Shown: one piece after another, positions 31,478 to 32,663 of the stretch
Layout: each line of letters opens with the position of its first letter
How positions within the stretch are numbered: position 1 is the stretch's first letter
Source: Pseudomonadota bacterium
GTDB lineage: Bacteria > Pseudomonadota > Gammaproteobacteria > Burkholderiales > SG8-39
Assembly: GCA_027624175.1 (NCBI GenBank)
Contig: JAQBXT010000002.1
Location: forward strand, 32,596-96,595
Direction: 5' to 3'
DNA: 64,000 nt
Notes under the pieces: model-generated
Told to the model about the DNA's origin: nothing
The model's input: the letters and a program-made list of their open reading frames with translations, nothing else
The model's database searches: none
Position numbers and translations under genes: made by a program

Positions 31478-31503
31478 AGCCTGCTGCCGTCGTGAAACGA
31501 GGT

Positions 31504-31566
31504 TTATACTACGATTTGTAGTGTTTAGTATAAGTGTTATACTAAACGGCGAAAAACGTAGTATAA
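31504..31566. promoter_or_regulatory. 63-bp nested palindrome with four TTATACTA half-sites
   Basis: TTATACTACG (31504-31513), TAGTATAA (31526-31533), TTATACTA (31537-31544), CGTAGTATAA (31557-31566), all symmetric about 31535; inner perfect 11-bp arms GTTTAGTATAA-GTG-TTATACTAAAC. Confidence 0.85.
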
Positions 31567-31568
31567 GC

Positions 31569-32630
31569 ATGCAAAGACTCGATCTGCAGGCACAAACGCT
31601 CTACGCGGAACTGCTCCAGCGAGTTCTGTCGGACACCATTGCCGCACCGATGGAGAAACTCGGGCGCTCCTTCGTCTCGAAGAAAATCGGCAGGAAGATC
31701 TACTGGTACCTGCAGCACCGCCAAGCCACGGGAATGAAGCAGACCTACCTCGGACCCGAGACGCCCGAGCTTCTCCGGGTCATCGAGTCAAGCAGGGCAG
31801 CAGGCAAGTCCCTCGAACCGGACATCGCCCGCCGCAAGGAACTCTGTACTGCGATCAGGGCCATGGGATTCCCGAGATGGCCGAGGCCCATGATTTCAAC
31901 GCTCGAGACGCTCGCAAACTCCGGCGTCTTTCACCTTGGCGCGATCCTCATCGGGACCCCGGCCTATGCGGCCTGCATCGTGACGCTGGGATTTCGCTCC
32001 ACCATCGGTACGGCATTGACGGGCGATATCGATCTGCAAATAGAACCCGCATCGCAGTCGTCTCTGCCGGACGCTGCGGCGATCAACGTCGGCAGCGTGC
32101 TGGACCGCGTCAAGCTCGGATTCTTTCCCGTGCCCGGCCTCGACCCGAGCAGTCCCACCACGACCTTCAAGGTACGCGATGGAGATCTGATGGTTCAGTT
32201 TCTGACCGCCGACACGCGCGGTGACGGCAAAGCCGTATTTGTAGAGCAGCTTGGGACGGCCGCGCAGCCCATGCCATTCATGGAATACCTCACCCCGGAA
32301 CCGATGAAGGCCGTGCTGCCATTCGATGCGGGCATCCTGGTCAACGTTCCAAACCCGGCGCGGTTCTCCTGGCACAAGCTCATCGTGGCAAGCAACAGGC
32401 CTGCGCACGAACGCGCCAAGGCCCGTAAGGATGTCGAGCAGGCCGCGGACCTGATCTACGCGGTTTTCCAAACCGATTCCGATTCGATAGAGGAAGCATT
32501 CACCGACGCCTACGCGCGCGGCGGACCCTGGGTCAGGAAGCTGAGCAGTGGTATCGCGCGATTGAAATCCCAGCGCGCCGGCGAGTACGAATTGATTCGC
32601 CACGTCGTCGAGAAGCACGCGCCGAACTGA
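31569..32630 (+). CDS. GSU2403-type nucleotidyltransferase-fold protein (NTP_transf_8-like)
   Basis: FHLGAILIGTPAYAACIVTLGFRSTIGTALTGDIDLQIEP NTase core; ATG 31569 chosen over upstream GTG 31521. Confidence 0.75.
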   Translation: MQRLDLQAQTLYAELLQRVLSDTIAAPMEKLGRSFVSKKIGRKIYWYLQHRQATGMKQTYLGPETPELLRVIESSRAAGKSLEPDIARRKELCTAIRAMGFPRWPRPMISTLETLANSGVFHLGAILIGTPAYAACIVTLGFRSTIGTALTGDIDLQIEPASQSSLPDAAAINVGSVLDRVKLGFFPVPGLDPSSPTTTFKVRDGDLMVQFLTADTRGDGKAVFVEQLGTAAQPMPFMEYLTPEPMKAVLPFDAGILVNVPNPARFSWHKLIVASNRPAHERAKARKDVEQAADLIYAVFQTDSDSIEEAFTDAYARGGPWVRKLSSGIARLKSQRAGEYELIRHVVEKHAPN

Positions 32631-32663
32631 TTCGCGGCAACGTATAATTCGCGCCCTCTCTCG

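Follow-up and report, generated by a model that had tools for sequence, protein, structure and literature searches.

Two tandem palindromic dyads lie immediately 5' of a nucleotidyltransferase (NTase) gene and are in all likelihood read by the enzyme itself: its unnamed N-terminal domain (N-domain) would bind the dyads and control the gene that encodes it, making one protein both autorepressor and enzyme. Jointly with binding and autorepression, we consider it very probable that operator and gene form a self-contained, horizontally acquired one-gene module. Binding, dimerisation and repression are inferred here from sequence comparison and structure prediction. The window referred to below is the whole stretch of DNA that was analysed, 64,000 nucleotides in length.

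Two tandem dyads precede a GSU2403-family nucleotidyltransferase gene

The initial annotation had described the element at 31504-31566 as a 63-bp nested palindrome with four phased half-sites. The half-sites are exact, with TTATACTA at 31504-31511 and 31537-31544 and TAGTATAA at 31526-31533 and 31559-31566, and both their start spacings of 22-11-22 and their symmetry about 31535 were confirmed. Around a central GTG, the inner arms pair without mismatch for 11 bp (31523-31533 with 31537-31547); for the outer arms the perfect match extends over 10 bp, and 2 nt separate the element from the ATG of the NTase gene. The repeats therefore stand, but their nesting as a unit does not, since comparison with relatives showed two tandem dyads of 30 bp each with TTATAC at their outer ends (Table 1). 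Read in this way, the back-to-back inner palindrome would be a product of the mirror arrangement of the two dyads.

Within the window, TTATACTA-N14-TAGTATAA with up to three mismatches occurs only as dyads 1 and 2 (0 expected from 100 shuffles), and at the same tolerance no further copy was found in the whole 2.33-Mb assembly. A chance repeat is ruled out by the shuffles, by this genome-wide uniqueness and by the conservation at homologues described below. An Rfam search gave no match. The exact pattern was also present in 21 viral-contig stretches, which is about chance level for so large a collection.

PF12281 was the only family to match the open reading frame, its score lying above the gathering score of 26.3, and no DUF1814/AbiEii-type NTase was recognised. 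Homologues elsewhere carry the plasmid annotation "GSU2403 family nucleotidyltransferase fold protein", and the start codon at 31569 agrees with that of relatives. The AlphaFold2 model was confident (pLDDT 91.9) and consisted of an N-terminal domain followed by the NTase fold. In this model, the N-domain comprises a helix (residues 6-23), a three-stranded antiparallel sheet spanning 33-63 (strands 33-40, 43-52 and 55-63) and a long helix (66-98). Searches of Pfam and NCBIfam assigned the N-domain to no family, neither sequence nor fold comparison gave a convincing PDB chain, and Foldseek returned no similar solved DNA-binding domain for it. The one PHROG match, to a single divergent relative only, was weak (E 0.0018).

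The catalytic residues G129, A132, D153 and D155 are present, and the third acidic position is occupied by glutamine (codon 32196-32198). As relatives carry D or E at this position (71 of 73 family sequences, with S in one, L080), the window copy may be impaired or weak as an enzyme, its N-domain and operator being intact. The literature searched contained no paper on GSU2403, PF12281 or COG5397, and neither a function nor an operator nor a DNA-binding domain was described there for the family.

Table 1. Features of the nucleotidyltransferase locus (window coordinates; a dot marks features without strand)
Feature	Position	Strand	Details and basis
Insertion of ~1.16 kb, dyads and gene together	31478..32642 (right end approximate)	+	priA/argS adjacency in relatives; lower GC
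Dyad 1, upstream operator dyad	31504..31533	.	TTATACTA-N14-TAGTATAA; counterpart family-wide
Dyad 1 half-sites	31504-31513; 31523-31533	+; -	TTATACTACG; TTATACTAAAC
Dyad 2, mirror image of dyad 1	31537..31566	.	22 relatives likewise with four half-sites
Dyad 2 half-sites	31537-31547; 31556-31566	+; -	TTATACTAAAC; TTATACTACGT
Predicted promoter nested in the dyads	31516..31543	+	Best sigma70-like; weak -35; absent from stricter scan
Promoter elements (predicted)	31516-31521; 31538-31543	+	-35-like TTGTAG; 16-nt spacer; -10-like TATACT
NTP_transf_8 (PF12281) nucleotidyltransferase, 353 aa	31569..32630	+	Profile match 2.5e-42, 145.7 bits
N-terminal domain, aa 1-103, predicted DNA reader	31569..31877	+	AlphaFold2, covariation, co-occurrence with dyad
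Nucleotidyltransferase domain	31878..32630	+	G129-T-x-A132, D153-x-D155; third carboxylate position Q210

The dyad is conserved upstream of homologous genes

Homologues were collected from whole genomes, named GTDB genomes, viral contigs and plasmids; among the named GTDB genomes, four closer homologues used as queries yielded 54 loci and the single window protein yielded none. The family is patchily distributed (13/387 genomes in the class and 46/399 in the phylum) and is carried on plasmids (442 PLSDB records); phage records contained no NTase homologue.

Conservation of the palindrome next to homologues, on which the initial annotation had made its interpretation depend, was clear. At a cut-off score of 9 or more, a dyad was found no more than 100 nt from the start in 66 of 78 NTase genes, compared with 9 of 139 control genes taken from the same loci (Fisher 6e-33), and in nearly all full-length members it stood just 5' of the start. 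This supports the earlier proposal of an operator, possibly an autoregulatory one; the cooperative binding that was also proposed, by a tetramer or two dimers, is an inference from the sequence alone. Two half-sites were present in 40 loci and four in 22 (about a third), with parallels to the tandem arrangement of the window at L075, L102, L049, L037-L039, L055 and L080. The commonest arm form was GTTATAC...GTATAAC with clade-specific inner bases (CGCAGT, CGGAG, CCGCAA, CGCC, CTCA, CCTTTT). The arms of other relatives were quite different (AGACAGA, TTCAACAA, CACACAAA and TGTACATGTAA), and TTATACGCAGT is an example from a relative whose operator has other arms than that of the window. Dyads were also present in 13 loci fetched later, mostly from a distant N-domain subfamily, with L175 and L179 weak. 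In this subfamily they span ~40 bp, about one helical turn more, and usually end 0-8 nt before the ATG.

Two variants of this layout were seen. L085 and L091 have a second dyad with identical arms ~112 bp upstream of the first, at about -160 from the start codon, which possibly serves looping or a divergent gene. The two close paralogues L065 and L133, both in genome G420, share an identical dyad core (GTTATACTGTTTTTGAAAAACAGTATAAC) with differing flanks.

The specific dyad occurred only at the NTase promoter in six genomes, namely the window's own and G654, G509, G262, G384 and G145; in G654 and G509, which are complete, the search matched this promoter alone, twice in each. Matches to a generic TTATAC..GTATAA elsewhere in the AT-richer genomes G318 and G197 were noise, as a reversed control matched even more often.

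The dyad accompanies the N-terminal domain

In a prospective set of genomes sampled from two other phyla, the dyad was found in 23 of 32 genes with the N-domain and in none of 19 without it, whose proteins are the NTase domain alone (Fisher 1.4e-7), from which we infer that the dyad goes with the N-domain rather than with the enzyme. Nine of the 32 lacked a dyad at the cut-off, some of them probably through wrong start calls. Members of ~225 aa that have no N-domain showed no dyad (L200-L204, L222, L227 and L229).

Relatives with more similar N-domains had more similar half-sites (Mantel r 0.50, 0/1000 permutations). In partial Mantel tests the N-domain retained 0.34 given the C-domain, and the C-domain -0.08 given the N-domain. 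When each 55%-identity cluster was reduced to one representative, the two domains gave similar, smaller values (0.18 and 0.17, respectively), and part of the raw correlation is therefore due to shared descent. Host family had no positive effect on half-site similarity. Residues 58, 38, 49, 40, 56 and 36, which are six of the nine most covarying, are alternate residues with their side chains on a single face of the predicted sheet. The contrast between faces A and B held with cluster representatives (0/500 permutations); the faces had been defined after the ranking was seen.

The NTase itself had been named earlier among several candidate binders. Covariation and co-occurrence point to its N-domain as the reader, in the absence of binding data. 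An autoregulatory operator should be conserved at its gene and tied to a putative binding domain, and the dyad satisfies both.

A model of negative autoregulation

Of 73 loci across the family, 61 had their best sigma70-like promoter overlapping the dyad, where 34 would be expected, and in 61 it scored above shuffles. For the window, dyad 1 contains the predicted -35, and the left arm of dyad 2 contains the predicted -10. This placement is tentative because a stricter promoter scan of the window found none at its threshold.

Negative autoregulation by the NTase itself is the most economical reading and the most likely one, with binding and repression inferred. The N-domain would contact the half-sites through one face of its three-stranded sheet, with two protomers on each dyad, at half-sites separated by some two helical turns. 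Placed in series, the two dyads would cover the predicted -35, the -10 and the would-be ribosome-binding-site region. We propose that, with these regions covered, the accumulating protein would shut off its own synthesis, and the enzyme would be kept low.

The reason for such tight control is probably that the enzyme is a toxin-like or defence NTase. This is an inference without toxicity or other test data, suggested by patchy presence, plasmid carriage and control of a single target. With confidence only a little better than even, we also make a general proposal: an undescribed DNA-binding domain joined to an NTase would constitute a mobile module of a single gene, self-repressing and toxin-like, that occurs in several phyla. 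Its half-site code would depend on a few residues of one sheet face and be readable from sequence.

Gene and operator entered together

The window NTase is flanked by priA and argS, without a separate AbiEi antitoxin gene adjacent to it, and the insertion that contains it reaches from 26 nt upstream of dyad 1 to 12 nt past the stop codon. In relatives of the same genus (G766 and G768) and the same family (G774 and G769), priA and argS are adjacent, a few tens of nt apart, without the NTase; priA of G766 is 97.5% identical over the aligned part. These empty sites lack the dyads, indicating that operator and gene entered together. The GC content of the insertion is 0.54-0.63 versus 0.70-0.74 on the priA side. 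No DNA-level relatives of the insert were found on plasmids. The right end of the insertion (32631-32656) has two copies of the motif ATTCGCG (GATTCGCGGCAACG then TATAATTCGCGCCC), possibly a trace of the insertion event.

Plasmid copies of the gene lie in unrelated surroundings with no conserved neighbour gene, which does not exclude a distant one. Known defence families had no match at the window locus. One homologue, L129 on a plasmid of Agrobacterium sp. MA01, has a HipA-family toxin operon on one side and a Fic-family gene on the other.

Alternative explanations

Inverted repeats adjoining a start codon could also act in the transcript, as a 5' leader stem-loop that the NTase modifies or binds, resulting in translational autocontrol or an RNA antitoxin. 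Predicted transcript folding is indeed strong (z -4.6), and NTase-fold proteins such as MenT and poly(A) polymerases act on RNA elsewhere. However, mismatches between the arms (7 GT, 6 AC and 4 other) showed no wobble bias, and at most loci the dyad encloses or overlaps the predicted promoter, so that the full stem would often go untranscribed. The separated double dyads and the half-site spacings of ~2 or 3 turns fit DNA instead, and we regard the hairpin as improbable. Marginally lower still is our estimate for an operator that serves not the NTase but some other, trans-acting regulator of the host, or an antitoxin since lost. Such dyads are used by many transcription factors, and the lack of a conserved neighbour leaves room for a distant regulator gene. 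Against this, arm sequence follows the N-domain without any positive effect of host family, none of the 19 members lacking the N-domain has a dyad, and in the genomes checked the specific dyad stands at no other gene.

The least probable explanation, and one largely refuted, is that the gene was brought in by a mobile element, of foldback or transposon-like type, whose end the dyads represent. The initial annotation had kept a foldback element as an alternative and had linked it to many unrelated genomic copies. Gene and dyad do form an insertion between priA and argS, in a family that is patchy and often plasmid-borne. Yet no other copies exist in the genome, no matching repeat lies 3' of the gene in the window, the insert contains no transposase, and half-sites across the family number only 14 on the 3' side against 203 on the 5' side.

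Relation to known systems

An operator bound by the N-domain of the NTase itself would provide the first functional clue for a large, apparently unstudied NTase family, most of whose N-domain members carry an operator of their own. The N-domain is a candidate new DNA-binding domain, and the family offers dozens of natural protein-operator pairs, from which a recognition code could be derived. A further implication is that certain NTase genes may be regulated without any antitoxin gene, their regulator being part of the enzyme itself. The window gene is a member of the GSU2403 family (PF12281, NTP_transf_8), in which members without the N-domain lack the dyad.

Enzymes that carry an operator-binding domain in the same chain and repress their own genes are known as trigger enzymes, among them BirA, NadR and PutA. 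Their DNA-binding domains are of the helix-turn-helix or ribbon-helix-helix type and they control metabolic genes, whereas in the window system only the enzyme's own gene has a site. NTase toxins of the MenT and MNT types have the NTase fold and are paired with antitoxins; a toxin-like lifestyle, suspected here without toxicity data, would be common to both, but the window has no antitoxin gene.

In the type IV toxin-antitoxin system AbiE (AbiEi/AbiEii; Rv2827c/Rv2826c in M. tuberculosis), inverted repeats, two or four in number, lie over the NTase promoter, as the window dyads do over a predicted one. At the promoter of the NTase toxin, AbiEi occupies a pair of 23-bp inverted repeats and Rv2827c four repeats, resulting in negative autoregulation (PMC7319586). 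The AbiE regulator is a separate two-domain antitoxin, whereas in the window the proposed regulator domain and the NTase are one protein with no second gene. The domains differ as well, with a predicted helix-sheet-helix N-domain and a PF12281 NTase in the window as opposed to DUF1814 in AbiE. By analogy, AbiE is the nearest proven parallel to the autoregulation proposed here.
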